Shown: positions 2,991-38,711 of the stretch, piece by piece | How the letters are laid out: each line of letters starts with the position of its first letter | Numbering within the stretch: the first letter of the stretch is position 1 | Assembly (NCBI GenBank): GCA_913020155.1 | Contig: CAJWBA010000019.1 | Span: 1 to 38,711, forward strand | DNA length: 38,711 nucleotides | Direction of reading: 5' to 3' | Source of the DNA: an uncultured Flavobacteriales bacterium | GTDB taxonomy: Bacteria; Bacteroidota; Bacteroidia; Flavobacteriales; Flavobacteriaceae | Notes under the pieces: model-generated | What the model saw: only the letters and a program-made list of their open reading frames with translations | What the model was told of the DNA's origin: nothing | The model's database searches: none | Program-made: the position numbers and the translations under genes

Positions 2991-5483
2991 ATGACTCAAT
3001 TAACCTTGCTTCAGCTTTTAAAAAAAACATACCGGCTTGGATCTTTAGCTGTTCTTCTAATTTTTTTGTGGAGTTGCCAAACAAACAACAGTAAATTCAG
3101 TCGGCTTAACGATTGGATTCCACAAAACAGCAGTTGGGTGATTCAAATCAACGACATCAATACTCTTATTAGCGAACTTACCAATAATGAGGTGTTTAGA
3201 GAAATAAAATCACTTAACCCAAATCTAACCTCTGACATCTCACGTTTACTCCAAGAAACCCCCGACGTAAAAAGTTTGATATGCATAACTACCGTTGGAA
3301 AAAATCCAAGTGTACTAACCCACATCTATAAGGCACCGATTGATTCTACTCAAATAACAGGAACTTCCATTGACTATAGTAAATTTAAAATCAATATTGA
3401 AAAAAGTGAAAAAAACATTCTTTACAGTACGAATATTCAGGGTTACACCTTGCGATCTACTTCCCAATTGTTAATTGAAAATTATATCCGTAAATTTCAA
3501 CAAAAAGATAAAAAAATAAGACAAGACAATCTTTTCGACAAAATCTACACCACTCTGGACACCAGCGCCCCTCTCAACTTTCTGGTTCAACCCCAGGCTG
3601 AAGAATTGATTGTAGAAGCAATTGGAAGTATTCCGTTATTTCCAAAAATCAACCACGATTGGAATGCTTATGATATTGATTTTGAAAATTCTGGATTCAG
3701 CTTAGATGGCTTGATTGCTGTTCAAGATTCATTAGGGGATCCCATGGGGATTCTCAAAGAAAACGATGCTCAAAAAATACTTTTAGATCAACTAGCTCCA
3801 GAAAACAGCACCTCTTTTTTATCTATTCCCCTAAATAATGCGCTCAAAACCGAAGATGCATTCAAGCGATGGGTTCTTCACCAAAATATTGCTCTTCCAC
3901 AAATCAACCTAAAAGCCCTGAGTAATGTAGATGAGATCGGATGGATTGAATTGGGCTCTGAAATCGTTTTACTTTTCCACTCTCAAAATGAGAAACTAGC
4001 TCAAGAATACCTCTTGCCCAAGTTAGAAAATGGTAAAAATTTCCGAGAAATTTCCTATTATCCCACAAAACTTCCTGATGATATTCTTTTGTTCTCTAAA
4101 GTTATTGGGTCTAAAGTAAAACCCAAATGGGGAGCTGTCATTGAAAACTTTTTTGTTTTTACAGCGAGTGAACAAGCCATTAAAACAGTTATTAGTAATC
4201 ACAAAGACGGAAGTACTTTAAGTAAAAATATAATTTACAATACATTCAAAGAAACTCTGGTCTCTCAAAGTTCGATCTATTGGATTGCTCAAACAAAAGC
4301 TTTGATTGAATTTTGGGAAAATAACAAAAAGAGGAAACCTTGGTCAAAACTGGATACGAAACGATTTCCTTTTGTTGCCTTTCAAGGAACTTTAGAAAAT
4401 AGCTTTATACACTTGCATTTCAGAATTCATGAAAATGAATTAAAAGTGATTCAAAATTCAGTTTCTAACCAATACCTTTTACAGCTAGAAGCTCCTCTAA
4501 GTTCTCCGCCACAATGGCTCAAAAACCACAGAACTAAGGGAATGGATGTTTTGGTTCAAGACATTAACAATAAGCTTTACTTGTTTTCTGATAAAGGGAA
4601 TTTGTTTTGGAAAAAACAATTACCTGGAAACATTCAAGGTCGGATTCAGCAGGTTGATTTATACAAAAACAAACGACTTCAAATGGCTTTTAGGACTGAA
4701 GATAAATTCTTTGTATTGGATCGAAATGGAAAAATAGTAAAACCTTTTTCAATAAAAATTTCCAGTACAGAACCCATTCAACCCTTAGCTGTGTTTGATT
4801 ATGATCAAAGAAGAGATTATCGTTTTGTTTTGACTCGAGGAAATAATTTGCAAATGTTTAATTCAAAGGGTAAAAAAGTATCTGGTTTTAAATTCAAAAA
4901 GACCAAAACCCCAATCATTAACCCTCCTGTTCATATTCGAATCAATCAAAAAGATTACATTGCAATTCAAGAGGAGAGTGGAAAACTTAGCCTTTTAAAC
5001 CGAACTGGAAAAGAACGGGTTAAAGTAAAAGGGAATATTGCTTTTTCTGGAAATTCAGTAAATTCTTACCTAAAAACATTTACTACCTCAGATAAAAATG
5101 GAGACCTGATTCAAATTGATGTCAAAGGAAACATCGTAAAAACAAATTTAGATTTAGAAAAAGGTCACCAAATTGCAACCACAACCAAATCTTTGGTATC
5201 CCAATCGAATAACATTTTAAACATTAAAGGAATTCCGATTACGCTACCCTTTGGACGTTACACTGCTCCGAAGATTTTTTATATCAACAACATTATTTAT
5301 GTAACTACTACCGATCTGGACGCACAAAAAGTTTATCTCTACTACAGCAATGGAACTTCTGTAAAAGGGTTTCCTGTTTATGGGACTTCAGCAGCTGATT
5401 TGACGAATGCAGACAAGGATAGAGCCTTAGAACTTGTAGTTCAGTCAGAAAGTAATGGGATAATTATTTATGGAATTAATTAG
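2991..5483 (+). CDS. Large lipoprotein of unknown function
   Basis: I chose the ATG at 2991 (830 residues). A TTG at 2970 in the same frame would add seven residues before the signal sequence. The N-terminus is a lipoprotein signal with a hydrophobic core and lipobox LWSC (acylated Cys29), so the protein is membrane-anchored. Residues about 30-500 contain no motif I can name, though the layout recalls large DUF3352-like envelope proteins. From about 510 to the end, short strands with recurring YLFSDKGN and FVLDRNGKIV type motifs suggest a PQQ/WD-like beta-propeller. It follows rnhB closely, and its stop codon overlaps the lipB stop by a few bases on the opposite strand. No function is assigned. 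Confidence 0.85.
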   Translation: MTQLTLLQLLKKTYRLGSLAVLLIFLWSCQTNNSKFSRLNDWIPQNSSWVIQINDINTLISELTNNEVFREIKSLNPNLTSDISRLLQETPDVKSLICITTVGKNPSVLTHIYKAPIDSTQITGTSIDYSKFKINIEKSEKNILYSTNIQGYTLRSTSQLLIENYIRKFQQKDKKIRQDNLFDKIYTTLDTSAPLNFLVQPQAEELIVEAIGSIPLFPKINHDWNAYDIDFENSGFSLDGLIAVQDSLGDPMGILKENDAQKILLDQLAPENSTSFLSIPLNNALKTEDAFKRWVLHQNIALPQINLKALSNVDEIGWIELGSEIVLLFHSQNEKLAQEYLLPKLENGKNFREISYYPTKLPDDILLFSKVIGSKVKPKWGAVIENFFVFTASEQAIKTVISNHKDGSTLSKNIIYNTFKETLVSQSSIYWIAQTKALIEFWENNKKRKPWSKLDTKRFPFVAFQGTLENSFIHLHFRIHENELKVIQNSVSNQYLLQLEAPLSSPPQWLKNHRTKGMDVLVQDINNKLYLFSDKGNLFWKKQLPGNIQGRIQQVDLYKNKRLQMAFRTEDKFFVLDRNGKIVKPFSIKISSTEPIQPLAVFDYDQRRDYRFVLTRGNNLQMFNSKGKKVSGFKFKKTKTPIINPPVHIRINQKDYIAIQEESGKLSLLNRTGKERVKVKGNIAFSGNSVNSYLKTFTTSDKNGDLIQIDVKGNIVKTNLDLEKGHQIATTTKSLVSQSNNILNIKGIPITLPFGRYTAPKIFYINNIIYVTTTDLDAQKVYLYYSNGTSVKGFPVYGTSAADLTNADKDRALELVVQSESNGIIIYGIN

Positions 5484-6190
5484 GTATAAACAAACTTTGC
5501 TTCAAACAAATTTTGAAAGTGCTTGGCGAGCTTTTCTTTTACTTCTATTAGTGAAATTTCTTTTTTAAGTTCAGCCTCTAGGGAAGTAACTCCTTTGCCT
5601 TTGATTCCACAGGGAATAATATAGTCAAAGTAAGCCAAATCAGTATTTACATTAAATGCAAACCCGTGCATTGTTACCCAACGACTCGCCTTTACTCCTA
5701 GAGCACATATTTTTCGAGCAAAAGGGGTTCCTACATCCAACCAAACTCCTGTTTCACCGGGGCTTCGGGTTCCCTCCAAACCGAAATCTTTCAAGGTTAA
5801 AATAACCATTTCTTCAAGTAATCGGAGGTATTTGTGTATGTCAGTAAAAAAGTTCTCTAAATCTAAAATAGGATAACCAACCACTTGACCCAGACCATGA
5901 AAAGTTATATCTCCACCTCTGTTTGTTTTATAGTATTCTATTCCGCGATCTTGAAGTTGCTCTTCGTTGAGAAGCAAATGATCGATGGTTCCGCTTTTAC
6001 CAAGAGTAATTACTGGCGGGTGTTCTACCCACAAAAAATAATTAGGCGTTGGCTGCTGAGTTTCATTTCTTCGATTCAACATTTTGAGATCTACAATTTC
6101 TTTCAAAAGTTTTTCTTGAAAATCCCAAGCCGGTTGATAAGTGGTGTTTTTTAATTCTTTTACTTGTATTTTTTTGTTTAAAACACCCAT
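5480..6190 (-). CDS. lipB: Lipoyl(octanoyl) transferase
   Basis: LipB moves octanoate from acyl carrier protein to the lipoyl domains of 2-oxoacid dehydrogenases and the glycine cleavage system, the first step of lipoate synthesis. The 236-residue protein has the family signature RGGDITFHGLGQVVGYPI at about 92-109. The catalytic Lys160 lies in ARKICALGV and the catalytic Cys194 in PCGIKGKGVTSL. I start it at the ATG at 6190, not the TTG three bases upstream, because this ATG shares bases with the stop of the small membrane-protein gene (TGATG). That arrangement implies translational coupling. It converges with the lipoprotein gene, and the two stop codons overlap. Confidence 0.96.
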   Translation of the reverse strand: MGVLNKKIQVKELKNTTYQPAWDFQEKLLKEIVDLKMLNRRNETQQPTPNYFLWVEHPPVITLGKSGTIDHLLLNEEQLQDRGIEYYKTNRGGDITFHGLGQVVGYPILDLENFFTDIHKYLRLLEEMVILTLKDFGLEGTRSPGETGVWLDVGTPFARKICALGVKASRWVTMHGFAFNVNTDLAYFDYIIPCGIKGKGVTSLEAELKKEISLIEVKEKLAKHFQNLFEAKFVYT

Positions 6191-6351
6191 CAATAACGAT
6201 TAGTATTATTCAAAATAACAAGTGCTGCGATTACTCCAGGAACCCATCCGCATAGAGTTAAGATGAGGACAATGACGATGGATCCACAACCTTGATCTAT
6301 TACAGCAAGGGGAGGAAAAAGTATGGAAAGTAAGACACGAACAAGACTCAA
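6190..6351 (-). CDS. Pmp3/YqaE family small membrane protein
   Basis: This 53-residue hydrophobic protein has the Pmp3/YqaE signature: LLSILFPPLAV, then a GCG turn, then a second membrane helix ending LCGWVPGVIAALVIL. It is an inner-membrane protein of the stress-associated proteolipid family, and its biochemical role is unknown. The frame has no ATG. A TTG at 6393 would add 14 residues that the family lacks, whereas the TTG at 6351 gives MSLVRVLLSILFPP, the usual family N-terminus, with an A-rich run just upstream. Its TGA overlaps the lipB ATG. It diverges from lysS. Confidence 0.85.
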   Translation of the reverse strand: MSLVRVLLSILFPPLAVIDQGCGSIVIVLILTLCGWVPGVIAALVILNNTNRY

Positions 6352-6432
6352 AGCGTTTTTTTTTAGCAAGATAATAAAAATTGAATTTTTCAATTGATGT
6401 AATCCCCTATCTTTACTAAAATTTTTGACACT

Positions 6433-8124
6433 ATGGCTGCATTGAGCGAACAGGAAATTATCCGAAGAAAAAAACTTAAAAAAATTAAAGCGTTGGGGAT
6501 TGACCCTTATCCTGCTGCACTCTATCCTGTAAACGAATTTTCAGCTTCCATAAAAAACAACTATGTTGAAGGAAAAGAAGTAATTGTTGCTGGACGTCTA
6601 ATGTCAAGAAGAATTCAGGGTAAAGCAAGCTTTGCCGAAGTTCAGGATAGTCAAGGAAAAATTCAAGTGTATTTTAACAGAGATGAAATCTGTACAAGCG
6701 AAGACAAGACACTTTATAACGAAGTTTACAAAAAATTACTTGATATTGGAGACATCATCGGCATTGAAGGAATACTTTTTACAACCCAAGTGGGTGAGCA
6801 TACAATTTTAGTTAAAAAATTTGACCTCCTAAACAAAACTCTACGACCACTTCCGTTGCCCAAAACAGATTCTGATGGAAATACGTATGACGAATTTAAT
6901 GACCCTGAGTTACGATATCGTCAGCGCTATGTTGATTTAATTGTCAATCCAAAAGTTAAAGATACTTTCATCAAAAGAACTAAAATAACGAACAGCATAA
7001 GGGAGTATTTTAATTCAAAAGATTATCTAGAAGTTGAGACCCCTATTCTGCAACCCCTACCAGGTGGGGCATCTGCTCGTCCGTTTATGACACATCACAA
7101 TGCACTCGATGTTCCTTTGTATCTTAGAATTGCCAATGAGCTTTATCTCAAGCGATTGATTGTTGGAGGTTTGGATGGGGTTTATGAATTTTCAAAAGAT
7201 TTTAGAAACGAAGGAATGGATAGAACTCATAATCCTGAGTTTACGGTAATGGAACTTTATGTTGCTTACAAAGATTACTTCTGGATGATGGAGAATACTG
7301 AAAAACTTCTTGAAAAGGTAGCTGTTGATTCCACGGGTAATTGTGCTGTTCAAGTTGGGAAACACTCCATAGACTTTAAAGCTCCTTATCCGAGAATACC
7401 TATCCTCAAAGCAATTAAAAATCAAACTGGAATTGATGTTTCTGAGATGGATGAAAATACCCTAAGAAACACTGCACGAGAATTGGGAATTGAGGTGGAT
7501 GACACTATGGGAATTGGTAAATTGATTGATGAAATTTTTGGAGAAAAATGTGAGCATCATTACATTCAGCCAACATTCATTATTGACTACCCCAAAGAAA
7601 TGAGTCCTTTGACCAAAGAGCATCGATCCAACCCTAAGCTTACAGAAAGGTTTGAGCTTATGGTCAACGGGAAAGAATTGGCCAATGCATACTCAGAGTT
7701 GAACGATCCCATTGACCAGAGAGAGCGTTTTGAAGAGCAATTTAAATTAAGTGAAAAAGGAGATGACGAGGCTATGTTCATCGATCAGGATTTCTTGAGA
7801 GCTCTGGAGTACGGAATGCCCCCTACCTCTGGAATTGGAATTGGAATTGATCGTTTGGTCATGCTAATGACCAACAACAGTTCAATTCAGGAGGTTTTGT
7901 TTTTTCCACAAATGAGACCCGAAAAGAAAGCTGTAGAAATGACCGAAGACGAGAAATTCATTTTTTCATTGCTGAAAAAAGAGGATTCTGTTGATCTCAA
8001 TGAATTGAAAAAGCAAGCTGGTCTGAGCAACAAAAAATGGGATAAAGCCATCAAAGGGCTTACCAAAATTGGTAGTGCCAAAGTTATCAAAAACGAGGAA
8101 GGCCTGTGGATTAGTCTTGGATAG
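6433..8124 (+). CDS. lysS: Lysyl-tRNA synthetase, class II
   Basis: This 563-residue enzyme charges tRNA-Lys. An N-terminal OB-fold that binds the anticodon (about 50-145) precedes the class II catalytic core. Motif 1 lies around GGASARPF (about 211-218), motif 2 is FRNEGMDRTHNPEFT (257-271) and motif 3 is GIGIGIDRLVMLM (467-479). Residues from about 500 to 563 form an extra C-terminal segment rich in Lys and Glu that reads like a small helical or winged-helix appendage, beyond the usual 500-residue LysRS. Such tails are common in Bacteroidota. A weak -7 like box (TATCTTTA, 6409-6416) lies just upstream. Confidence 0.97.
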   Translation: MAALSEQEIIRRKKLKKIKALGIDPYPAALYPVNEFSASIKNNYVEGKEVIVAGRLMSRRIQGKASFAEVQDSQGKIQVYFNRDEICTSEDKTLYNEVYKKLLDIGDIIGIEGILFTTQVGEHTILVKKFDLLNKTLRPLPLPKTDSDGNTYDEFNDPELRYRQRYVDLIVNPKVKDTFIKRTKITNSIREYFNSKDYLEVETPILQPLPGGASARPFMTHHNALDVPLYLRIANELYLKRLIVGGLDGVYEFSKDFRNEGMDRTHNPEFTVMELYVAYKDYFWMMENTEKLLEKVAVDSTGNCAVQVGKHSIDFKAPYPRIPILKAIKNQTGIDVSEMDENTLRNTARELGIEVDDTMGIGKLIDEIFGEKCEHHYIQPTFIIDYPKEMSPLTKEHRSNPKLTERFELMVNGKELANAYSELNDPIDQRERFEEQFKLSEKGDDEAMFIDQDFLRALEYGMPPTSGIGIGIDRLVMLMTNNSSIQEVLFFPQMRPEKKAVEMTEDEKFIFSLLKKEDSVDLNELKKQAGLSNKKWDKAIKGLTKIGSAKVIKNEEGLWISLG

Positions 8125-27587: not shown

Positions 27588-27977
27588 TACAAAAATTGGT
27601 ATAGTAATATTTTGATTTATAATTTATTTATTTTTAAGTTTTAAAAAACGTTCAATAAAAAAATGACCCATCATTGATATATATGGAAGAATCAGAGATT
27701 TTACCACGATCTCTAAGTACTAAAGTTTTGGATTTTAGGTGTTTTAGAGTATCTAAAGTAGAGAGAATCTTTAAGGCTAAAAGATCTGATAAATCACTTT
27801 AGCTTATAACAAATACCTTTTGCGATTCTATTCTTTTTTTTTTATCTTAGAATCGAAAATTTAAAGTAACTTAAATAATCCTTCCAAATAAATCTTGTGC
27901 CACAACGCTAGCTTCATTTAATTATTATTCTTTGATTTTCCCACTAAAAAAATCGGGTTTATTTGCAAAATAGTGTA
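27588..27977. other. Long intergenic region before the PAP2 gene
   Basis: These 390 bases hold no well-supported gene. A 39-codon frame (27683-27802, starting MEESEILPRSLSTKVLDF) has no clear ribosome-binding sequence. Two inverted repeats are visible: AGAGAT-N9-ATCTCT at 27694-27714 and an 8-base pair of arms around a T-rich loop at 27823-27855. A near -7 match (TTTATTTG, 27958-27965) precedes the PAP2 start. Confidence 0.4.
27823..27855. repeat. Inverted repeat with poly-T loop
   Basis: CGATTCTA (27823-27830) and TAGAATCG (27848-27855) are perfect 8-base inverted arms. The 17-base loop contains ten consecutive T. It does not follow a gene on either strand closely, so a terminator role is unclear. 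An operator or a remnant of a mobile-element end are alternatives. Confidence 0.4.
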
Positions 27978-28823
27978 ATGGATAATTACAAATTAAATAA
28001 AAAAATAATTGACAACTTTTCTAATACAAGATTAACTCAACTATTTCCTCCCGTCCTTTTATTACTTATCATCGCACTCACATTTTTGTATGAAAATTCG
28101 CTCAATACTGAGGGATACATCGAAACTCAAAAAAAATTATTTTTCTACCTCAACAGGTTTTTATCCAAATTACCTGATTTATTATTTAACATAACTCAAC
28201 TGGGAGATGCAATTATTTTTTTACCCTTTTTCACGGTGTTGATCATCTATACTCCAAAATTCTGGAGCACCCTTTTAACTTCTTCATTTATTGGATTACT
28301 GTTTTCAGTATCATTAAAAAAATTCTTTCTTGTTCCTAGACCAGCTGCAGTTTTTGACAATGATAGTTTTACCATTATTGGAAGAACTCTTGCCTCAACC
28401 CATTCGAGTTTGCCTTCTGGACATTCTGTTACAACTTTTATGATAGTCACCACTTTATTATTTGCTTTTATGCCAAAAGAGTTCAAGTTGAAGGTGTTTT
28501 GGTCTTCAATAATTCTGTCAATAGGCCTTTTTATCGCATTTTCTAGGGTTGGTGTAGGAGCACATTATCCATTTGATGTAGTTATTGGATGTACAATTGG
28601 ATATATTGCTGCAATTCTTGGGATTTTTATAAATAACAATATTCGTATGGGCACTGGTCTTATAAACTTAAGATACTATCCAATACTAATGTTGTTTATA
28701 CTAATTTGGATGGTAGCAATTGTTAGTGAAATAATGGATCGTAATCTATTAATATTCTATTTTTCTCTTGGTGCTCTTATCCTAACTTTGGGCTTGACAA
28801 TAAAAACTTATTTAAAAAAATAA
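27978..28823 (+). CDS. PAP2 family membrane phosphatase (LpxE-like)
   Basis: This 281-residue protein has about six membrane segments and all three PAP2 motifs: K114-x6-RP (KKFFLVPRP), PSGH at 146-149, and SR-x5-H-x3-D (S189 R190 to H196 and D200 in SRVGVGAHYPFD). The active site faces the periplasm in this family. The next gene is an EptA-type transferase only seven bases away. From that I infer that this enzyme removes a lipid A phosphate, like LpxE; undecaprenyl-diphosphate phosphatase activity is the alternative. I use the ATG at 27978. A TTG at 27963 in frame overlaps the likely promoter and would add five residues. Confidence 0.88.
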   Translation: MDNYKLNKKIIDNFSNTRLTQLFPPVLLLLIIALTFLYENSLNTEGYIETQKKLFFYLNRFLSKLPDLLFNITQLGDAIIFLPFFTVLIIYTPKFWSTLLTSSFIGLLFSVSLKKFFLVPRPAAVFDNDSFTIIGRTLASTHSSLPSGHSVTTFMIVTTLLFAFMPKEFKLKVFWSSIILSIGLFIAFSRVGVGAHYPFDVVIGCTIGYIAAILGIFINNNIRMGTGLINLRYYPILMLFILIWMVAIVSEIMDRNLLIFYFSLGALILTLGLTIKTYLKK

Positions 28824-28830
28824 ATCCAAT

Positions 28831-30354
28831 ATGTTAAAAAAAAGCGTCAAATTGAGTTGGTTTATTTTTATAATTAGTTTTCTAAATCTATTACTATTCC
28901 ACCTACCTGTGTATCAATTCAGCATTCAAAACTATGATGGAAAAAACTTAGATAAGGTATTCTTGATCCTTAGTTTGGCCGTTTTAATTATAGCATTAAA
29001 CGCTTTAGTTTTTTATTTAGTCTTTTTTATTTCTCGTTTTATTGGTAAGTTTTTTTTGGTTCTTTTTACTATCACAAATTCAATCGCAGTATATTTTATT
29101 AATACTTATAATGTAATTATAGACAAAACAATGATTGGAAATGTTCTTAACACCAATTATGACGAGTCAACCAGCTTCCTCTCTTTTAGTTTTGTTTTAT
29201 ATTTGATTCTGCTGGGAATTATTCCGATTATATTCATAATCAAAACTAAAATTATAAAAGAAGGTTACAAAAAAGCATTAAAGTATATTGTCCTAACCTT
29301 CATTTTTATTGTAGGGCTCGCTTATATCAATTCTAGTAATTGGCTCTGGATTGATAAAAATTCAAAGGCACTTGGCGGTTTGGCTATGCCATGGTCATAT
29401 GTTGTTAATCTCAATCGGTTTTATTATCATAAAAGTCAGAAAAATCAAGAACAAATTTTACTTCCAGATGCTACCCTAAAAGATGATGAAAAATCTGTTG
29501 TAGTTCTTGTAATCGGAGAATCAGCCAGAAGTCAAAACTTTTCTTTGTATGGATATGAAAAGGATACAAACCCATTGTTGACTAAAATGAATAATATTTA
29601 CAGTTATACAGCAAATTCATGTGCAACCTACACTACTGCTGGAGTTAAATGTATTTTAGAACACGAAAACAGTAGTAAGTTAAATGAAATTTTACCCAAT
29701 TATTTATTCAGAAATGATGTGGAAGTCATTTGGAGAACCAATAATTGGGGAGAACCAAATGTGAGAATTCAGAACTACCAAAAAAGAGTAGATTTAAAAA
29801 AACAATGCCAAGGAGAGGGATGTGAATATGATGAGATTTTACTGAGCAATTTAAAGGAACAAATCCAAGTCAGTAAAAAAAATAAAATACTGATCATTTT
29901 ACATACAAGCACAAGTCACGGTCCAACATATTACAAAAAGTACCCTCCAAAGTTTAATAAATTCAAACCCGTATGTAAGGTGGTTGAATTGGGGAAATGT
30001 ACCCAAGAAGAGTTAATCAATGCATACAACAACACCATCGTTTACACAGATTATATGCTAGCTACTCTTATTGATGAATTGAAGCAATTGGCTGAATACA
30101 ATAGTCTAATGCTTTATGTTTCTGATCATGGTGAGTCTTTAGGGGAAAAAAACTTGTACATGCATGGAATCCCAAAGAGTATAGCACCTAAAGAGCAATT
30201 GGATATTCCATTTATTGTATGGCAATCTAATAATTATAAAAAACTCAAAAAGAATGAGTTCTTATCACAACACCATGTTTTTCATAGTGTCTTGGATTTC
30301 CTAGCTATAGAAAGTCCCATTTACGACAAAAACATGAGTATTTTCAAAGAATAA
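28831..30354 (+). CDS. eptA: Phosphoethanolamine transferase, EptA type
   Basis: This 507-residue inner-membrane enzyme has five N-terminal membrane helices (to about 170) and a periplasmic sulfatase-like domain. Metal and active-site motifs are present: GESARSQNFSLYGY with Glu230, the Thr nucleophile region SCATYTTAGVKC (263-274), SHGPTYY, and SDHGES with Asp432 and His433, followed by MHG (His445). Several Cys pairs probably form periplasmic disulfides. The nucleophile segment reads ATYTTAG where E. coli-type EptA has GTATAVS, so it belongs to a different subgroup. It should transfer phosphoethanolamine to lipid A, reducing negative charge. It is translated right after the PAP2 gene. Confidence 0.92.
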   Translation: MLKKSVKLSWFIFIISFLNLLLFHLPVYQFSIQNYDGKNLDKVFLILSLAVLIIALNALVFYLVFFISRFIGKFFLVLFTITNSIAVYFINTYNVIIDKTMIGNVLNTNYDESTSFLSFSFVLYLILLGIIPIIFIIKTKIIKEGYKKALKYIVLTFIFIVGLAYINSSNWLWIDKNSKALGGLAMPWSYVVNLNRFYYHKSQKNQEQILLPDATLKDDEKSVVVLVIGESARSQNFSLYGYEKDTNPLLTKMNNIYSYTANSCATYTTAGVKCILEHENSSKLNEILPNYLFRNDVEVIWRTNNWGEPNVRIQNYQKRVDLKKQCQGEGCEYDEILLSNLKEQIQVSKKNKILIILHTSTSHGPTYYKKYPPKFNKFKPVCKVVELGKCTQEELINAYNNTIVYTDYMLATLIDELKQLAEYNSLMLYVSDHGESLGEKNLYMHGIPKSIAPKEQLDIPFIVWQSNNYKKLKKNEFLSQHHVFHSVLDFLAIESPIYDKNMSIFKE

Positions 30355-32520
30355 CTACAAGCGTATTGCCTTGAAATCGGTTCTTCTTTTTTGTAGGTGT
30401 TCCTCCTCTGTCAGTTGCAAACATGGGTTTATCAATACCCAAGTATCCATTCCAGAATCTTTAAGTTCTTTTCTTATTCTGTTGATTTCATTTTTTGAAT
30501 CTAGAGGTGAAAAAAGTACTCTAATACGGTTTCCAAATTTTTGTGTAAAGGGCTCGTATCCCTTTTCTACCAATTTATTCATTAAAATCTCTGTATTGGC
30601 CAAATCATAAAAACTTCCTGCTACCAAAGCGTAGTCTTTTTTGAATAATGTTGATCCAATATCTTCACCATATCCTTTCCCATAAATTCGTTCCGGATTT
30701 GAAATCCGTTTTTTTACATATGCAAGTATGGATTGTGTTCTTCGACTAGATAACAATAAATTATATTCCGAATTGGATCTGCAATCCGTGTAGGAACTGA
30801 TTTCAACTTCGAGAGTTGGATTTTCTTGCATAACAACAACTACCTTATTCACACGATCTCGGTAAGTATCTAATATTGCACTCTCGTCAAGATCATAAAA
30901 GATAGGTGAGAAAGTGTCAGCCAACAAAGTACTGAGATCTTCCTCAGTTATCTCAGCTCTTCTCAAGTGGACCCATACTTCTTTAGAATTACCTTTGCTA
31001 CTCAAAAGTCGATAAGCAAAAGAATCTGTGGGTTGAAGCGGCGTATTATTTTTATAAAAAAAAGACCCGTTTTTATTCAATTGAAGTTGACCGTACAATG
31101 GTAGTCTGGCAACCTCAACTTCTTTTTCTACTAACCGTTGTAAAGGGTCTTCTTGTTCCAGTTCTAACTGATCATTGGTTAATACGTTATTCAAAGCAAC
31201 AACAAGAGTGTCCGAAGGGGTGAATTGATAAAAATCTTCTATACCTTGGATCTTTGGACTAAATTCAAAAGCATATAAATCATCAGCTCCTTTACCTCCA
31301 GATTTATTAGATGATAAATGACCTAGTGAAAGATCTTGATTCAAAACAAAAGCAAAATCATCGTCAGTAGTATTAATACCCTTCCCCAATACGTATACTC
31401 CCCAACGCTTTTCAATTCGATTTTCGGCTAAAAAAACATCCATTTCGCCTATTCCATTTCTTCCATTTGAAGTGAAGAACAGAAATCGGTCGTTATAGGA
31501 ATACGGGAACACCTCGTTTCCTTCTGTATTAATATCAGAGCCTAAATTAATCGGTTCTGAAAACGTTCCGTTCTCAATTGAAACAACATATAAATCCATT
31601 CCTCCAAATCCGCCAGGACGATCACTGGCAAAGTATAATCTGGATCCGTCGGGACATAGACTCGGGTGAATTGTTGAATAACCATCCACATTGAAAGGAA
31701 GCGCAACAGGTGATTTATTTTGATTTAAATCGGATAAACGGATTTTATATAAATTTAATTGTAATGTTTTGCTTTTATCTAATTTATAGGCACTTCTCGT
31801 AAAATAAAAATATTCTGTATCGGGATCATAACTACCAGGGCCCTCTTGATAAAGCGAATTGATGGAGGTATTAAGTTCAACTTTGTTTGACAGTGAAAAG
31901 TTTTTTTTATCAAAGTTTGCTTTGTAAAAATTATAAATAGGATAATCTGTTTTGATTCGTTTCATGACCTTTGCAGAAGCCTTTGTTTGATCTTGTTCAG
32001 ATAGATAAAAAACAGAGCTTTGATCGTCTTGTGCTAAAAAAACCATTCCAAATTCAGATCCCTCTGTGTTCCCTAGGACAGAATTAATATCATACACCTG
32101 CTCTTGATCAAAACGTTTTTTAAACAACAAACTATCATTCTGAAATAAATTGGGTGATGACCAAGGTAAGAGGAAGGCTTTTTTTCTGTATTCATTGGAC
32201 AAAGAAACCTCATCAGCTAACAAATCTGCGAAATTATAATAATCTTCAACCTTAGCATCAATGGAATTGACAACAGATTCATACTGAATTCTGGCTTTAT
32301 CTTTTTCTCCCAAAGCCCACAACGCCAATGCCCAATTTCGTTGAGTTCGAATAGATATGTTGTCTTTTGTTCTTGAGAAAAAATATATTGCTTTTTCAAA
32401 ATCTTGGTTTAAATAATAATAATCCCCCCAGTTCTCGGTAGAAAAAACTTCAGTTTCTTGTTGAGCTTGAATGGAAACACCCATTAAAAAAAACGTCAAA
32501 AATTTTAATACTTTTTTCAT
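30355..32520 (-). CDS. TPR-PD40-OmpA protein with inserted SPOR-like domain (T9SS-associated)
   Basis: This 721-residue envelope protein starts with signal MKKVLKFLTFFLMGVSIQAQ. TPR-like helices follow (about 25-120), then PD40/WD-like repeats (about 220-420, for example HPSLCPDGSRLYFASDRPGG) and a cadherin-like strand block (about 430-525, NKNGSFFYKN and PTDSFAYRLL). An OmpA domain begins near 536, with the TDCRSNSEYN and LLSSRRTQS motifs that bind diaminopimelate. After RIYGKGYGED (to about 622) the fold is interrupted by about 75 residues matching SPOR (YALVAGSFYDLANTEILMNK and FGNRIRVLFSPL). The typical OmpA ending (CLQLTEEEHLQKRRTDFKAI, 700-719) then resumes. It is the last gene after the cargo and SprF-like genes, two bases from the latter. 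Confidence 0.9.
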   Translation of the reverse strand: MKKVLKFLTFFLMGVSIQAQQETEVFSTENWGDYYYLNQDFEKAIYFFSRTKDNISIRTQRNWALALWALGEKDKARIQYESVVNSIDAKVEDYYNFADLLADEVSLSNEYRKKAFLLPWSSPNLFQNDSLLFKKRFDQEQVYDINSVLGNTEGSEFGMVFLAQDDQSSVFYLSEQDQTKASAKVMKRIKTDYPIYNFYKANFDKKNFSLSNKVELNTSINSLYQEGPGSYDPDTEYFYFTRSAYKLDKSKTLQLNLYKIRLSDLNQNKSPVALPFNVDGYSTIHPSLCPDGSRLYFASDRPGGFGGMDLYVVSIENGTFSEPINLGSDINTEGNEVFPYSYNDRFLFFTSNGRNGIGEMDVFLAENRIEKRWGVYVLGKGINTTDDDFAFVLNQDLSLGHLSSNKSGGKGADDLYAFEFSPKIQGIEDFYQFTPSDTLVVALNNVLTNDQLELEQEDPLQRLVEKEVEVARLPLYGQLQLNKNGSFFYKNNTPLQPTDSFAYRLLSSKGNSKEVWVHLRRAEITEEDLSTLLADTFSPIFYDLDESAILDTYRDRVNKVVVVMQENPTLEVEISSYTDCRSNSEYNLLLSSRRTQSILAYVKKRISNPERIYGKGYGEDIGSTLFKKDYALVAGSFYDLANTEILMNKLVEKGYEPFTQKFGNRIRVLFSPLDSKNEINRIRKELKDSGMDTWVLINPCLQLTEEEHLQKRRTDFKAIRL

Positions 32521-32522
32521 AA

Positions 32523-33452
32523 TTAAAAGAATCTTGGTGAACGTAAATAACCTTTAACTTTCTGTGTTAAGTCAAAACGAATCATCAGTTCATGCGATGA
32601 AGCATTTAAACCCTTATTGGTAATAGAGGCAGGTAAACCGTAAGAATATCCAATAGATAAATTCTCGCCAAGCTGAATGCCAATCAATGCACTTAACCCT
32701 GCCTCAGCAAAGTTGAAAAAATCTTTTCTATTAATTACATTTCTAATTTGAAGACCAGTCCAAAAGCGTTCGTTTATTATCAATAATAGGGAAGCATCAA
32801 AGGCAGCTACAGTTTTCGTTTGTTTCAATAAAAAACTTGGTTTTAAAAGTAAGCTTTTATTCATTTGAAAAAGACCTCCTGCCATTAAATATGCATGGCG
32901 TTCCAAACCGAAATCCTTATTTTCTAAAATACGCGGAACAGCCAATCCGAGATAAAATTTCTGAGTGTAGTAGTAAGCTCCAAAACCAATATTAGCCATT
33001 ATTTTTTTATCCACTGTCGACTCAAAAGAGGCATCATTTCCAGTTAATGTATTGATCATATCGGGATTTAAAAAATAATTTAAAGCACCGAGCTTAAGTC
33101 CTATTGAAAGCCTATGATCATTGCGATTTAGTCGCAAGTGATAGGATAGATCCACATCAAATGATGTGCTGCTAGTTGGACCTATTTTATCATTCAAAAC
33201 ACTCAGACCAAACCCTAAATTTTTTGAAGTAATGGGCGTATTAAACGATAGTGTTTGGGTTAAGGGTGCGCCTTCAATACCTGCCCATTGTGACCGAACT
33301 ATAGAGGTAAAACTTGACAATCCCCTCGCTCCAGCATAACCAGGGTTAATGGATTGGTGGTTAAACATGTAATGATTAAAAGCTGATTCTTGTTGAGCAT
33401 AAGAGAGACTCAGACTAAAGCAAAAAAGAATAAATAAGTGTATCCATTTCAT
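32523..33452 (-). CDS. PorP/SprF family type IX secretion outer-membrane protein
   Basis: This 309-residue beta-barrel protein begins MKWIHLFILFCFSLSLSYAQ, then the family opening QQESAFNHYMFNHQSINPGY-AGARG. It also has LSFNTPITSKNLGFGLSVLN and repeated amphipathic strands to the end. PorP/SprF proteins act with specific T9SS cargo; SprF is needed to export the SprB adhesin in Flavobacterium johnsoniae. The ATG at 33452 overlaps the cargo stop (TGATG), so translation is coupled. A TTG three bases upstream is unnecessary. This tight link marks it as the dedicated partner of the adhesin. Confidence 0.93.
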   Translation of the reverse strand: MKWIHLFILFCFSLSLSYAQQESAFNHYMFNHQSINPGYAGARGLSSFTSIVRSQWAGIEGAPLTQTLSFNTPITSKNLGFGLSVLNDKIGPTSSTSFDVDLSYHLRLNRNDHRLSIGLKLGALNYFLNPDMINTLTGNDASFESTVDKKIMANIGFGAYYYTQKFYLGLAVPRILENKDFGLERHAYLMAGGLFQMNKSLLLKPSFLLKQTKTVAAFDASLLLIINERFWTGLQIRNVINRKDFFNFAEAGLSALIGIQLGENLSIGYSYGLPASITNKGLNASSHELMIRFDLTQKVKGYLRSPRFF

Positions 33453-36400
33453 CAATTCTGTCTTCTTTTAATGTAAACATAACCCGTATTGGGTTGAGAA
33501 TTGTCTTCCCATTCTATCAGATAAAAATAGGTGCCATCGGGTAGTAAGTTATTTGAAGAAAGTAAAGCTGTATTTACGGATTCCCCTTGCCAATCATTAT
33601 TGTATTGATTGGTTTTAAAAACAATATTTTCCCAACGATTAAAAATTGTAATTACATAACCTCCTCTAGAATTTAAACCTTGAATTTCCCATGTATCATT
33701 GACACCGTCTCCGTCTGGAGAAAAGGCATTTGGAATAACCAAACCAGACTCCGTTACCTTAGTTTTAGAAATCAGGCTGTTTTGACAAGCAAATGCTGTA
33801 TTGTTTACCACAATTCGATATTGCTTGTCTATTGAGCTTTTAGGAGCTTGAAGAATTAACAGCTGCTTGGTATTAGTTCCTCTTTGTAAACTACTTTCTT
33901 CGACATTTATCCAAGTAGGAAATTCTTCTGACCCTAAATTTATTTGCCATTGATAGGTGGCAAAACTATCCAGAGAGAGACCCACGGTAAATTCCATTCT
34001 ATTTGAAGAATACCTTGTTACGGGAGCTACTTCAGTTTCAAAACGAATCAAATCATTTTCTTCCTTAAAATCATAAACCCCGTTGAGATTCATGTCAGCA
34101 GGATCAAGATACCCTCCATGATTTATTACCTGTCCCAGAGCATCAACTTCAATTATTCCTGTTCCTAAAATACCATCATCATCTTGATCATTAAATCCTG
34201 CTTCAAGTACGTCATAACAACCGTCATTATCACTGTCTAGATCAAAAGTATTGGGTATCCCATCTGAATCTTCATCCTGAAAAAATTCTTCTGTATCTAA
34301 AATCCCATCATTGTCATCGTCTAAATCGATACTGTTTATCAATCCATCCGAATCACAATCTCCTGTCCCTAGAACATCTATAGTGATGCTTTGAAAAATA
34401 AATTCACAAGGATTGTTTGGGTCAGAATTATCAGCAAGTTCATCTGTATTCAAAACACCATCTCCATCAATATCATCATCACAAACATCTCCAATACCAT
34501 CCAAATCAAGATCTGCTTGATCTGAATTTGAAATGAGAATACAATTATCCAAAGCATCAATAGCTCCGTCACTATCTTGATCCCTATCGTTATCAAAATT
34601 AATTATGCTTCGAATTTCATCTAATATTGATCTGTAGTCAGGATCCGAATTAGGAGCATCTATACTTATAACAACATTACTAATTATGTCACCGTCAATT
34701 ATGTAATCGTCTACCCCTATTACTGTTATTATCTGGGGAATATTCCAATTTGTCGGAGTAAATACTAATTGAGGTGTAATTACTGATAATTCGGTTAGAT
34801 CTTCAGCTATAATTAAAATCGTAGTTGAAATAGAAATACTAGTAGTTAACTTTACAGTCAAATATGTAGTACTAGCATTCTCAGAAACTGCTTGTGGTTC
34901 TGAGACGAACAAACTAGGGGAATCATTATCTAAATTATAAAGTTCTACGTCTGCAACATCCTGGGCTGTTAAAGTATTGTGGTCAAAATCAATACTGCTT
35001 GGATCTCCTGTTATCAAGGTTATTGATTGAGTTCCATCAATGATAAAATCATCTTGCCCAGTAACAATAATCTGGTTTTCTGCTGGATTATCCCAATTCG
35101 AAGCTTCTATTGTTATGCTATTTGCACTGAGAGTTATCTCATCAATATCACCAGCTAAAGACAAAGGCACAACAACATCCTCGTCCCCCAGTGGTCGTGA
35201 AAGAAGTCGAAACTGAACAGTTACAGTTTGACCATTCTCAGAAGTGAAAAAATTATTATTCAATAAACTCAAAACTATTCCTGGTGCATCATTGTCTTGA
35301 TTCATTATTACAACATCCTCAACCTGAGCATCTGTTATTGCATTAAAATCTGCATCGGTCGAGTTTACATTAAAAGTAGAGATCGTTACGGATTGACTCC
35401 CATCGGAAATTGGTGGTGAATCGTCTACTCCTGTCACCGTAATTATTTGAGGAATATTCCAGTTTGCAGGCGTAAATAAAACTTGATTTACACCTACGGT
35501 AGCTTCGCTAATCATACTGGAATTAAGATCTATGGTAACATTTGCTCTTGGAATTGCATCTAGTTGGAGCGTAAATTGAGCAGTATCTCCACTTTCAGAA
35601 CACAAATTATCCAAAACAACTATGGTTATTCCCGCTAAATCGTTATCAAGTGTTGTTACCAAAACATCTTTTGAGGGCACTGCCAAAAAACCAGCATTGG
35701 ATCCTGCATCTATGGATGCTGTTATGGAAGAGTTTTGACTCCCGTCAATTAAAAAATCATCGACTTGAAATAGATTTACTGTTTGAGAAACGTTCCAAGA
35801 AGTCGGAGTAAATATTAAAAATGAAGGCGCGACCACACCAGCTTCTGTAGAGTCGTTTGAAAATAAATTTATGGTTACGTTGGTTAAAGGTTCAACATCA
35901 AGAATAACTTCAAAACTTGCTGTAGGCGAAGCAGCCTCTGTTAAGACTCCTAAAACACTTGAAACTTGAAAACCTGGAATTTCGTTGTCTAAATTCTGAA
36001 CATTCACGCTTTGACTCGCGACAGCTAAAAACGAGTTTGCTGATAAAGCATTAACTTCTACAGTTACAGAATTTGTTGTTGTTCCATCCAATATTATATC
36101 ATCTACACTATTCAATATTACAGTCTGAGGGACATTCCAATTTGCACTGGTAAATACCTTTGGAGTTGATAAACCCTCAACATTTACTTCGGTTAAATCA
36201 ATACTTGTAATATCTATAATTATAATCTCTGCAAGACTCGGTTGTGCATCCAAAACTATCGTGAAACTTACATTAGCCGAGGATGCTTCCTGAAGGGAAC
36301 CACCCCCAATTGCACTTAGAGTAAATCCAGCGATTTCATTATCTAAATTTGGAGCCAGTATGGTTTGTGAAGCAAGGGAACTAAATTCAATATCTGAACT

Positions 36401-38711
36401 TGAATCAACATCAAAAGTAATAGACGATACAATAGTACCATCTATCAAAAAATCATCAAAATTAGAAACTGTTATTGTTTGAGATACATTCCAATTTGCG
36501 AAGGTAAATCGAACACTAGATACAGAGGACGAAACTTCATCATTAGGATTTATGGTTAAATTTAAAACAACATCAGTAGCCGGTTGCGAATCGAGAATTA
36601 TTGTAAAACTAGCCGTTTGTGAATCTCCCTCTATTAAAACTCCGGTAAGGGGTGACAAAGAATAACCAGCTGAATCATTATCTGCATTATTGACCGTGGC
36701 TGTTTGAGAGGCTAAAGAGGTAAATGCCGAGTCGGAAGCTGAATTAATACTTGCTGAAATACTTGCTGTTTGGGTTCCATCAACAGTCAATTCATCTACT
36801 GAATTCAAAACAATAGTTTGAGCTATGTTCCAATTCAATGGAGTAAAGGTTAGGCTTGTTGTACCAACGGTAACCTCTGTTAAGTCCAAACTTTTTATAT
36901 CTATTATAACATCAGTCAACGGTTCTGCTGTCAGAACCACTGAAACACTTGCAGTCTGAGGATTATTTTCGGTCAAAGTTCCTGAAACTGTACTAAGTAA
37001 AAATCCTGCTACCTCATCATCTACTATTTGAATTGCATAAGTTGGCAGGGGATTCGGGTTAACATAGCAATCATCTGAAAGAGGATCATTAATTCGTACC
37101 GTAAAATTTGCAGTCTGAGTCCCATCAGCAATTGAGTTATCAACGGTTGTTACAGTTCCAATTTGAGAAACATTCCAATTAGAGGGAGTAAAGGTAATTG
37201 ATGAAGTTGATACAGTCATCTGAGTTAAATCTGAAGAAGCTATATCATAAGTTACAGGACTAGTAGGAGGATCATTCAAGACCAAAGAAAAGGTGGAAAC
37301 CGTACTGCCTTCTGTCAGATTTAAAATTGGAGGTACAAGCGTATAAGAACCGTCCGTAAGATAGATAGTAACAGCTAATCGATTCAAACTGTTACGGTAA
37401 TCAATATTGGAAGTGTCAGAAAGATTAGCAGCCTCAATATAATATGTAGCTCCATTTACCAACTCGTTTGTAATTGGGAGTTCAGAAGCAGAACCAATAG
37501 GAGTTGAAAACCAAACTCCATTGTAAGGCGTTCCCCCAGCGTCAGACCCGTTGTCCACAATAATATCATTCAAAGTTGGAGAAGCTTGTAAACAAAAAGT
37601 TTGACTACTTGCACCTGTTGGGGTTAAAATTTCATCTGTCATACAGAGTGAATTATTATCAAAACGAACACTTTGTTCATTTTTAGCACCCCCTGTAGAT
37701 GCCGTAAAACCCATGTAAGCGATGTTAGAATTCAATACTGTTCCTATCAAGTCAATGGACTTGCTATCGGAATAAACAGTTCCGTTATTGTGAGTAAACG
37801 TATAAGATAAAATAGTTGATTGGGGGTTCCACTTTATTAGTATATTATGCCAATTCCCATCTTCAAGATTGATGGTTTCAATTGTATCAGGGGATCCTTG
37901 TTGATTCATTGATGAGTCACCGTTGAGAATAAATCCAATGTGATCGGCTCCACTATTGGGGTCATGACCATTTCTGTATGTATCCATTTCAATTGCATAA
38001 GACGGAGTTATTCCGCCATAACCCAAGCCACCACCAGAGGTACCCTGACCCAAATCTAAATTTTGCAGTACAAATGCAATTCCATCTGCCCCACTATCGC
38101 TGTTTCCAAAATTTAAATCAACATCAAAAGTAAATTCAACTCTGAGGTCCAGCCTTCTTTGATACCAAACTGATCCAGATTGAGTATTTAAATTCGGTGT
38201 AATTCTATAAAGACCTGCTCCTTGATGAATTGCTGAATTATTTATTGCAAACTCTGAACTATCAAAATTTCTGGTAAAACAAACTTCTAAATCATCATCT
38301 AAATTTCGTGCTTGAATTGTTTTATCAATCAATAAATCAAAGTCATCATCTGACAGGCTATCAACAATAGATACAATCAAATTACTAGTTATATCGGAAT
38401 CACGTATCGTGTCGTCAACACCTGTTATAGTTATCAATTTTTGATTATTCCAATTCAAAGGTGTAAAGGTGAGGGTAGTTGAAGATACACTAACCTCTGA
38501 TGGATCAACAATTGTAATAGATAAAACAACATTTGAATCAGGTTTATGCACCAATCCGATCAATACACTACTGGTATTAGTTCCTGACTCATTAACCGTT
38601 ACAAAATTTTCGCTAACCGTAAAATCAGGTGGACATACACTAATATTAATTGGATCCGAATCAAGAAATTCTTCGGGTTCTCCTGGACAACTTATAAAAC
38701 CTCTGATCAAA
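33452..38711 (-). CDS. Giant type B T9SS cargo adhesin with lectin domain (5' end outside window)
   Basis: The visible 1752 codons run off the right edge, so the N-terminus and signal peptide are missing. Domains in order, numbered from the window edge: one Calx-beta-like repeat (about 30-140); an L-type lectin-like domain (about 143-357, with DSGADGIAFVLQN and IEMDTYRNGHDPNSGADHIG); a strand-rich Ig-like segment (360-455); eight more repeats (460-1375, core pattern FTPxNWNxxQxIxxxxVDDxxxDG); thrombospondin type 3 calcium-binding repeats (1375-1520, DxDxDG runs); and a C-terminal CHU_C type B sorting domain (1656-1752, VIPNAFSPDGDGVNDTW to GYVYIKRR). Such proteins are exported through T9SS and attached to or released from the surface. 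A role in adhesion, possibly to glycans, is inferred. It heads the operon with the SprF-like and OmpA genes. Confidence 0.93.
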   Translation of the reverse strand, partial: LIRGFISCPGEPEEFLDSDPINISVCPPDFTVSENFVTVNESGTNTSSVLIGLVHKPDSNVVLSITIVDPSEVSVSSTTLTFTPLNWNNQKLITITGVDDTIRDSDITSNLIVSIVDSLSDDDFDLLIDKTIQARNLDDDLEVCFTRNFDSSEFAINNSAIHQGAGLYRITPNLNTQSGSVWYQRRLDLRVEFTFDVDLNFGNSDSGADGIAFVLQNLDLGQGTSGGGLGYGGITPSYAIEMDTYRNGHDPNSGADHIGFILNGDSSMNQQGSPDTIETINLEDGNWHNILIKWNPQSTILSYTFTHNNGTVYSDSKSIDLIGTVLNSNIAYMGFTASTGGAKNEQSVRFDNNSLCMTDEILTPTGASSQTFCLQASPTLNDIIVDNGSDAGGTPYNGVWFSTPIGSASELPITNELVNGATYYIEAANLSDTSNIDYRNSLNRLAVTIYLTDGSYTLVPPILNLTEGSTVSTFSLVLNDPPTSPVTYDIASSDLTQMTVSTSSITFTPSNWNVSQIGTVTTVDNSIADGTQTANFTVRINDPLSDDCYVNPNPLPTYAIQIVDDEVAGFLLSTVSGTLTENNPQTASVSVVLTAEPLTDVIIDIKSLDLTEVTVGTTSLTFTPLNWNIAQTIVLNSVDELTVDGTQTASISASINSASDSAFTSLASQTATVNNADNDSAGYSLSPLTGVLIEGDSQTASFTIILDSQPATDVVLNLTINPNDEVSSSVSSVRFTFANWNVSQTITVSNFDDFLIDGTIVSSITFDVDSSSDIEFSSLASQTILAPNLDNEIAGFTLSAIGGGSLQEASSANVSFTIVLDAQPSLAEIIIIDITSIDLTEVNVEGLSTPKVFTSANWNVPQTVILNSVDDIILDGTTTNSVTVEVNALSANSFLAVASQSVNVQNLDNEIPGFQVSSVLGVLTEAASPTASFEVILDVEPLTNVTINLFSNDSTEAGVVAPSFLIFTPTSWNVSQTVNLFQVDDFLIDGSQNSSITASIDAGSNAGFLAVPSKDVLVTTLDNDLAGITIVVLDNLCSESGDTAQFTLQLDAIPRANVTIDLNSSMISEATVGVNQVLFTPANWNIPQIITVTGVDDSPPISDGSQSVTISTFNVNSTDADFNAITDAQVEDVVIMNQDNDAPGIVLSLLNNNFFTSENGQTVTVQFRLLSRPLGDEDVVVPLSLAGDIDEITLSANSITIEASNWDNPAENQIIVTGQDDFIIDGTQSITLITGDPSSIDFDHNTLTAQDVADVELYNLDNDSPSLFVSEPQAVSENASTTYLTVKLTTSISISTTILIIAEDLTELSVITPQLVFTPTNWNIPQIITVIGVDDYIIDGDIISNVVISIDAPNSDPDYRSILDEIRSIINFDNDRDQDSDGAIDALDNCILISNSDQADLDLDGIGDVCDDDIDGDGVLNTDELADNSDPNNPCEFIFQSITIDVLGTGDCDSDGLINSIDLDDDNDGILDTEEFFQDEDSDGIPNTFDLDSDNDGCYDVLEAGFNDQDDDGILGTGIIEVDALGQVINHGGYLDPADMNLNGVYDFKEENDLIRFETEVAPVTRYSSNRMEFTVGLSLDSFATYQWQINLGSEEFPTWINVEESSLQRGTNTKQLLILQAPKSSIDKQYRIVVNNTAFACQNSLISKTKVTESGLVIPNAFSPDGDGVNDTWEIQGLNSRGGYVITIFNRWENIVFKTNQYNNDWQGESVNTALLSSNNLLPDGTYFYLIEWEDNSQPNTGYVYIKRRQN
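34586..37333 (-). repeat. Eight tandem Calx-beta-like protein repeats
   Basis: Eight units of about 112-122 residues follow one another, each with a conserved FTPxNWN and VDD(x)nDG core. The cores fall near residues 506, 621, 734, 851, 966, 1078, 1200 and 1316; a ninth lies upstream of the lectin domain near 81. The DNA has drifted between units, so the array is old and not a recent slippage product. One unit is divergent (IEASNWDNPAENQIIVTGQD), and the seventh core of the whole series carries an extra PPIS insertion. Confidence 0.85.

Follow-up and report, generated by a model that had tools for sequence, protein, structure and literature searches.

The closest described system is PorE of P. 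gingivalis (6top), in which TPR repeats, a propeller, a further domain and an OmpA_C-like domain follow one another. Its OmpA domain contacts diaminopimelate via D576, N584 and R591, and three helices are inserted in a loop of this domain (PMC7192894). PorE is described as binding PorP, which in turn binds the type B protein PG1035, as reported from cross-links (PMC9143113). Static foci are formed in F. johnsoniae by a type B adhesin whose neighboring genes code for PorP-like and PorE-like proteins, which the authors suggest as its anchor (PMC12618676). The corresponding cluster, Fjoh_3952-3951-3950, brings together a type B CTD substrate, a PorP/SprF-like shuttle and a PorE homolog, as does the locus presented here, but the description that was compared does not mention a SPOR insert (PMC12618676).

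In the SPOR domain of RlpA, glycan is contacted by Q270, F274 and a patch of arginines, among others (PMC6895207). In the literature searched, at the level of abstracts, no description was found of a SPOR domain nested in an OmpA domain. The nested order is what appears to be new in the protein presented here; its domains and protein class are known, and un-nested pairs of SPOR and OmpA domains occur in related proteins.

The window (the whole stretch of 38,711 nucleotides that was analyzed, from an uncultured member of the Flavobacteriaceae) encodes a PorE-like protein next to a PorP/SprF-family gene and a large adhesin gene (Table 1). Among 80 loci with related proteins, the closest named relative is 82% identical and comes from the Flavobacteriaceae MAG AH_MB4, and the named relatives also include Candidatus Arcticimaribacter and a relative of MS024-2A. 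As the latter two names belong to the marine NS5 group (PMC9122927), we infer that the window does as well. The paper also names an isolate, Arcticimaribacter forsetii AHE01FL.

Table 1. Coordinates in the window of the PorE-like protein, its parts and the adjacent genes.
Feature	Position	Strand	Basis
PorE-like protein, 721 aa, OmpA domain interrupted by SPOR	30355..32520	-	ORF; Pfam PD40, OmpA, SPOR
N-terminal hydrophobic stretch, residues about 1-20	32461..32520	-	sequence reading
Ig-like domain, residues 436-517, at the site of PorE's carboxypeptidase-regulatory domain	30970..31215	-	Pfam Big_9
OmpA domain, first part, residues 536-620, putative stem-peptide contacts D579, Y586, N587, R594	30661..30915	-	Pfam; alignment to PorE 6top
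SPOR insert plus linkers, residues 622-699	30424..30657	-	Pfam; FtsN 1uta match; model; Foldseek
OmpA domain, last part, residues 698-721: C700, helix, closing strand	30358..30429	-	model; alignment; Cys co-variation
PorP/SprF-family outer-membrane barrel, presumed partner	32523..33455	-	Pfam PF11751 E 2e-64; TIGR03519
Large surface adhesin, L-type lectin and C-terminal T9SS type B sorting domain	33452..38710, to contig end	-	profiles

The domain order is that of PorE, with sub-threshold TPR matches close to the N-terminus and a PD40 match at residues 285-312. Both proteins share the stem-peptide contacts, and the PorP/SprF gene of the window has its counterpart in the PorP-family partner of PorE. 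Differences are also apparent. No lipobox is seen in the window protein: residues 1-40 contain no cysteine, and the hydrophobic N-terminus is read as a putative type I signal peptide that lacks the lipobox cysteine. In place of the carboxypeptidase-regulatory domain of PorE there is an Ig-like match, which at 20 bits lies under the Big_9 cut-off of 23.6 in the window protein and exceeds the cut-off in three relatives (L009, L018, L019). The insertion at the loop position where PorE has its three helices is a complete SPOR domain. As the score against the NCBIfam profile T9SS_PorE (NF052230), 218.9 bits, misses the family cut-off of 600, we refer to the protein as PorE-like and not as PorE.

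The PorP/SprF gene scores 222.7 bits with TIGR03519 (cut-off 90.55), and the adhesin is recognized by TIGR04131 (51.9 bits, cut-off 35), PF18483 (E 9.1e-45) and CHU_C PF13585 (E 5.9e-24). The PorE-like gene begins 2 bases after the PorP/SprF gene, whose ORF overlaps the end of the adhesin ORF by 4 bases. In all 36 loci compared, from 19 carriers of the insert and from non-carriers alike, a PorP/SprF match adjoins the PorE-like gene, overlapping it or separated by at most 15 bases in 35 and by 60 in L059. An ORF matching the C-terminal 110 residues of the window adhesin adjoins in 12 of the 19 carriers, and in 5 others a large adhesin-like ORF lies on the opposite strand; in L011 and L048 such an ORF is absent within the stretch compared. 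The SprA translocon is encoded in all three genomes of the genus to which the window belongs. With its gene placed after those for PorP/SprF and a lectin type B adhesin, the product most likely serves as a PorE-like anchor that fixes a static adhesin to the wall.

The reading that we favor, with a probability of roughly 0.6, is that of a periplasmic PorE-like wall anchor in an adhesin/PorP-SprF/PorE-like module, to which the SPOR domain adds a second wall contact. The protein probably ties the surface adhesin to the cell wall. The adhesin would be exported by the type IX system and then kept at the surface by the PorP/SprF barrel, on which the N-terminal part of the window protein, with TPR and propeller, would dock from the periplasmic side; this chain from adhesin to barrel to anchor is proposed by analogy with the relatives. 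At the other end, the C-terminal OmpA domain would grip peptidoglycan by its diaminopimelate stem peptide, and the adhesin would thereby become part of a static, wall-tethered complex. Species of the NS5 group are described without gliding motility (PMC9122927), which fits a static adhesin. From its loop before the last OmpA helix and strand, the SPOR domain would most likely make its second contact on peptide-stripped glycan strands, and this would tighten binding or enrich the anchor where amidases act, at the septum and young poles; the glycan binding and any localization are steps that we only infer.

The SPOR-in-OmpA architecture on which this reading builds is well supported. According to Pfam, the OmpA match (PF00691) covers residues 542-619, with 32.7 bits against a cut-off of 27.2 (E 9.9e-8, profile positions 2-81 of 98), and the SPOR match (PF05036) covers residues 628-695, with 32 bits against a cut-off of 21 (E 1.5e-7, positions 3-74 of 76). 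The initial annotation had read the same order from a series of motifs, all of which are present as quoted: RIYGKGYGED at residues 611-620, ALVAGSFYDLANTEILMNKL at 631-650, NRIRVLFSPL at 664-673, MDTWVL at 691-696, NPC at 698-700 and EEEHLQKRRTDF at 705-716. The last of these, of the EEEH..RRTDF type, is the missing end of the OmpA domain, located C-terminal to the SPOR domain. The arrangement proposed by the annotation, in which the last OmpA loop holds a complete SPOR domain and the OmpA end returns after it, is supported by Pfam, two structure models and 20 relatives; the nested finding is real, conserved and was correctly read. That the OmpA loop accepts insertions is indicated by the three helices that PorE has there.

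Both sequence and fold uphold the SPOR-like character of the insert. Its sequence profile matches FtsN (1uta, E 8.1e-7), and 17 of the 21 inserts score at or above the Pfam SPOR cut-off as printed (L038 with exactly 21.0 bits and over part of the profile only), with three below it (L040, L042, L045) and one without a match (L043), which places the SPOR identity beyond chance. Modelled alone (pLDDT 90.0), the insert has the elements E9-16, H19-31, E37-41, E44-52, H55-67 and E73-76, the RNP-like beta-alpha-beta-beta-alpha-beta fold expected for a SPOR domain of about 70 residues. In a Foldseek search with this model, CwlC ranked first (TMq 0.79, E 3.4e-4, the sole SPOR match with E < 0.001), followed by the RlpA SPOR domain with denuded glycan (6i09), the same domain alone, and DedD at ranks 2 to 4, FtsN at rank 8 and DamX at rank 23. 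SPOR domains of five proteins are thus among the 50 matches listed, those other than CwlC with E values of 0.01-0.1 and interspersed with unrelated proteins, several of them ferredoxin-like. The SPOR domains of FtsN, RlpA, DamX, DedD and CwlC share fold and family with the insert. SPOR domains often occur in proteins that are anchored in the membrane by their N-terminus. In RlpA the domain is described as a C-terminal module, whereas in the window protein it sits inside another wall-binding domain and the glutamine is replaced.

The annotation had also raised the question whether relatives share the insertion, and 21 carriers were found in total, among the named loci, as an additional protein (L147) and when 397 Flavobacteriaceae genomes were searched. 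In this search, with residues 606-721 as the profile and at most 11 candidates scored per genome, nine proteins in eight genomes of four genera matched all or nearly all of the profile. The 27 other matches listed covered mostly the SPOR part, two of them only the tail (91-114), and the match in G356 (profile 25-113) crosses two stop codons. With limited candidates scored per genome, the window alone was listed as a whole-query match among 395 genomes of the order, and it was likewise the only one among the best matches listed for 395 genomes of the phylum. The congener that encodes L008 also encodes the second nested protein, L147 (G099:C6), in which Arg replaces the C-terminal SPOR Trp kept by the other 20 carriers.

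The length of the stretch between GYGE and RR..F, determined with a motif script in 53 of the 80 named loci, separates the two groups: it is 92-93 residues in 11 carriers and 10-25 residues in 42 non-carriers (21 in 33 of these). Relatives without the insert are in this respect as the annotation had stated. The other 27 loci gave no value due to pattern failure or a cut gene and include the truncated L044 as well as L049, where the insert can be seen by eye. In the assembly, the PorE-like gene of L049 (5738-7902) is split across two ORFs. The flanks of non-carriers are similar, for example GLGE..CNCC..EDVHQLNRRTEF in L010.

A tree of the host proteins, built without the insert from the 21 carriers and 22 others, shows carriers interleaved with insert-free proteins in supported subclades. 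Insertion in a single clade was rejected on this tree (p-AU 6.3e-9), and parsimony requires a minimum of 4 changes. These four or more changes would be gains or losses, and one gain followed by losses would fit as well as repeated gains. Either way, with at least four gains or losses close relatives manage without the insert, which we count against the favored reading. In an alignment of 73 SPOR columns a common origin of the inserts is not rejected (p-AU 0.437). The inserts are not monophyletic in the best tree, where the N-terminal SPOR domain of L002 adjoins the inserts of the nearest relatives of the window protein (support 97) and three domains of the Gln type adjoin the L049 insert (support 90); given the small number of columns, this may be taken as a hint only.

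SPOR domains accompany PorE-like OmpA domains in other positions as well. The genome of the window itself encodes a 923-aa protein (L002; G000:C26, 379-3147) with an N-terminal SPOR domain (29 bits), an uninterrupted OmpA domain and a PorP/SprF gene directly before it (C26:3378-4253), and L031 also has an N-terminal SPOR domain (22.6 bits, cut-off 21). Like the window protein, both combine SPOR, propeller and OmpA, but with SPOR at the N-terminus instead of inside the OmpA domain. In L205 (ORF 1-2130) the SPOR domain lies directly before OmpA (41.9 bits); the same genome also encodes the insert-free relative L021. Finally, L060 from the Chitinophagales (5383-7566) has a complete OmpA domain and then a SPOR-like tail of 20.6 bits, just under the cut-off. 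With three positions above the Pfam cut-off (nested, N-terminal and directly before OmpA) and a fourth, after OmpA, just below it, the pairing suggests that wall anchors of this type have recruited SPOR more than once.

The two domains differ in how closely their predicted ligand sites follow the known ones. PorE residues D576, Y583, N584 and R591 map to D579, Y586, N587 and R594 in the alignment to 6top; D579, N587 and R594 are invariant in 40 of 40 aligned rows, and by this comparison the predicted stem-peptide pocket of the window protein is intact. In the SPOR domain, the equivalent of RlpA Q270 is V633, and none of the 21 nested domains has Gln at this position (V in 9, I in 5, L in 4 and F, N and Y in one each). 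Together with the 19-28% identity to the window's insert in nine of the ten other rows of one alignment, and with an insert that is dispensable across the host-protein tree, this raises the question whether the SPOR fold still binds glycan at all. It could instead be a rigid spacer, or a surface for PorP, for the adhesin module or for a divisome protein, with the OmpA domain alone holding the wall. We consider this unlikely, though it deserves to be taken seriously, since the position of F274 is aromatic and the C-terminal Trp is retained in 20 of the 21 nested domains each, and since SPOR and wall-binding OmpA proteins come together in several different ways. Moreover, the polar contacts of RlpA with glycan are mostly made via main-chain atoms, and the Gln is described as preferred in the SPOR family profile, with no stated requirement (PMC6895207). 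At the position of R309, Arg or Lys is found in 13 of the 21 domains (Q in 6, H in 2).

The glutamine is likewise replaced in most other SPOR domains of the family: among 26 of these, a set that is not random because the search model had been seeded with the nested domains, 23 have V or I and three have Gln. Of the 26, one (L005) comes from the window's own genome and 25 from a Pfam search of 60 genomes, which gave 29 best matches (L148-L176); L164, L170, L172 and L173 were dropped because the match was too short. Two kinds of SPOR domain can accordingly be told apart among L148, L149, L151 and the 23 others, the common V/I kind and the rarer Gln kind. We did not accept degeneration of the SPOR domain on the loss of Gln alone; given V or I in 23 of the 26 others, the loss is possibly a lineage trait or a sign of a different ligand. 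Binding of denuded glycan by the nested domain is plausible, and the survey yields a set of Flavobacteriaceae SPOR domains without the Gln thought important for glycan binding. An amidase (PF01520) is encoded once in each of two congeners, but the MAG that contains the window, 80% complete, gave no match to this family, which we count against the favored reading.

If both domains of the wall anchor bind as we propose, they may act as a composite reader, with OmpA on a stem peptide and SPOR on adjacent stem-free glycan. In marine Flavobacteriaceae that do not glide, type IX adhesins would then be located at the septum and the new poles, and a C580-C700 bond would hold the double linker in place. 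Such an anchor would prefer the border of intact and amidase-processed wall. We put this forward as a tentative extension that is rather doubtful in its full form. Its appeal is that two peptidoglycan readers with complementary targets (stem peptide present or absent) would be fused in one structural unit, offering a testable case in which the state of the cell wall may position surface adhesins in Bacteroidota.

Nesting itself has to be weighed against a simple tandem, in which OmpA would finish at GYGE and be followed by SPOR and an unrelated tail. Such an order could be read from the Pfam OmpA match, which halts at profile position 81 and does not resume after SPOR, and from the structure comparisons of the joint model. 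The joint model (AlphaFold2, residues 527-721, 195 residues, 40 aligned sequences) has a pLDDT of 91.9 and a pTM of 0.75, and in a Foldseek search the C-terminal domain of PorE (6top) ranks first (E 2e-9), but the alignment has an rmsd of 11.9 over 190 columns, which counts against our reading, and in general the Foldseek alignments that reach beyond the first OmpA part have a large rmsd. In model numbering, DSSP assigns H25-40, E45-52, H58-77 and E86-93 to the first part of OmpA and E104-111, H114-126, E132-136, E139-147, H150-162 and E168-171 to SPOR; the tail, however, is not without structure, with H173-176, a predicted closing helix (179-185) and a predicted strand (187-194). It can also be aligned to the OmpA ends of 27 insert-free relatives, with Arg712 invariant in 40 of 40 aligned rows, and to the final OmpA strand of PorE, although by itself it is a weak piece of 3.2 bits. 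A true tandem looks different, as in L060, where a complete OmpA domain precedes SPOR. With the co-variation of Cys580 and the number of tail cysteines described below, this makes the tandem very improbable. In the nested arrangement, the tail with the last strand would pack on the OmpA core, as judged from secondary structure, homology and the cysteine co-variation.

This co-variation was a raw count over 91 proteins of the cysteines in the loop before the tail. Where a Cys is present at the TD-x position, next to the pocket Asp (TD-C-R), the loop count is odd in 27 of 32 proteins and even in 5; where it is absent, the count is even in 59 of 59 and odd in none. Among the five exceptions, L050 was miscounted by the pattern, another core cysteine is present in L094, L099 and L107, and L073 is genuine. 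As the proteins are related, the Fisher p-value is no fair probability here. The pattern suggests a C580-C700 bond that would hold the chain in place where it comes back from the insert. Alternatively, C580 or C700 may bond to another protein, and in F. johnsoniae SprF and PorG are described to bond to GldK, a rare periplasmic case (PMC12635249).

An artefact of assembly or annotation, such as a chimeric contig or a frameshift in what is an incomplete MAG, is practically out of the question and is refuted by the relatives that carry the insert, with stop-free frames in nine proteins from 8 of the 397 genomes and in the named metagenome and other uncultured assemblies, and with consistent insert length and flanks.

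On the other side of the PorE-like gene, at 27963-30354 of the forward strand, a PAP2 phosphatase gene lies beside a gene for an EptA/EptB-like phosphoethanolamine transferase, whose end directly abuts the PorE-like gene with no base in between.
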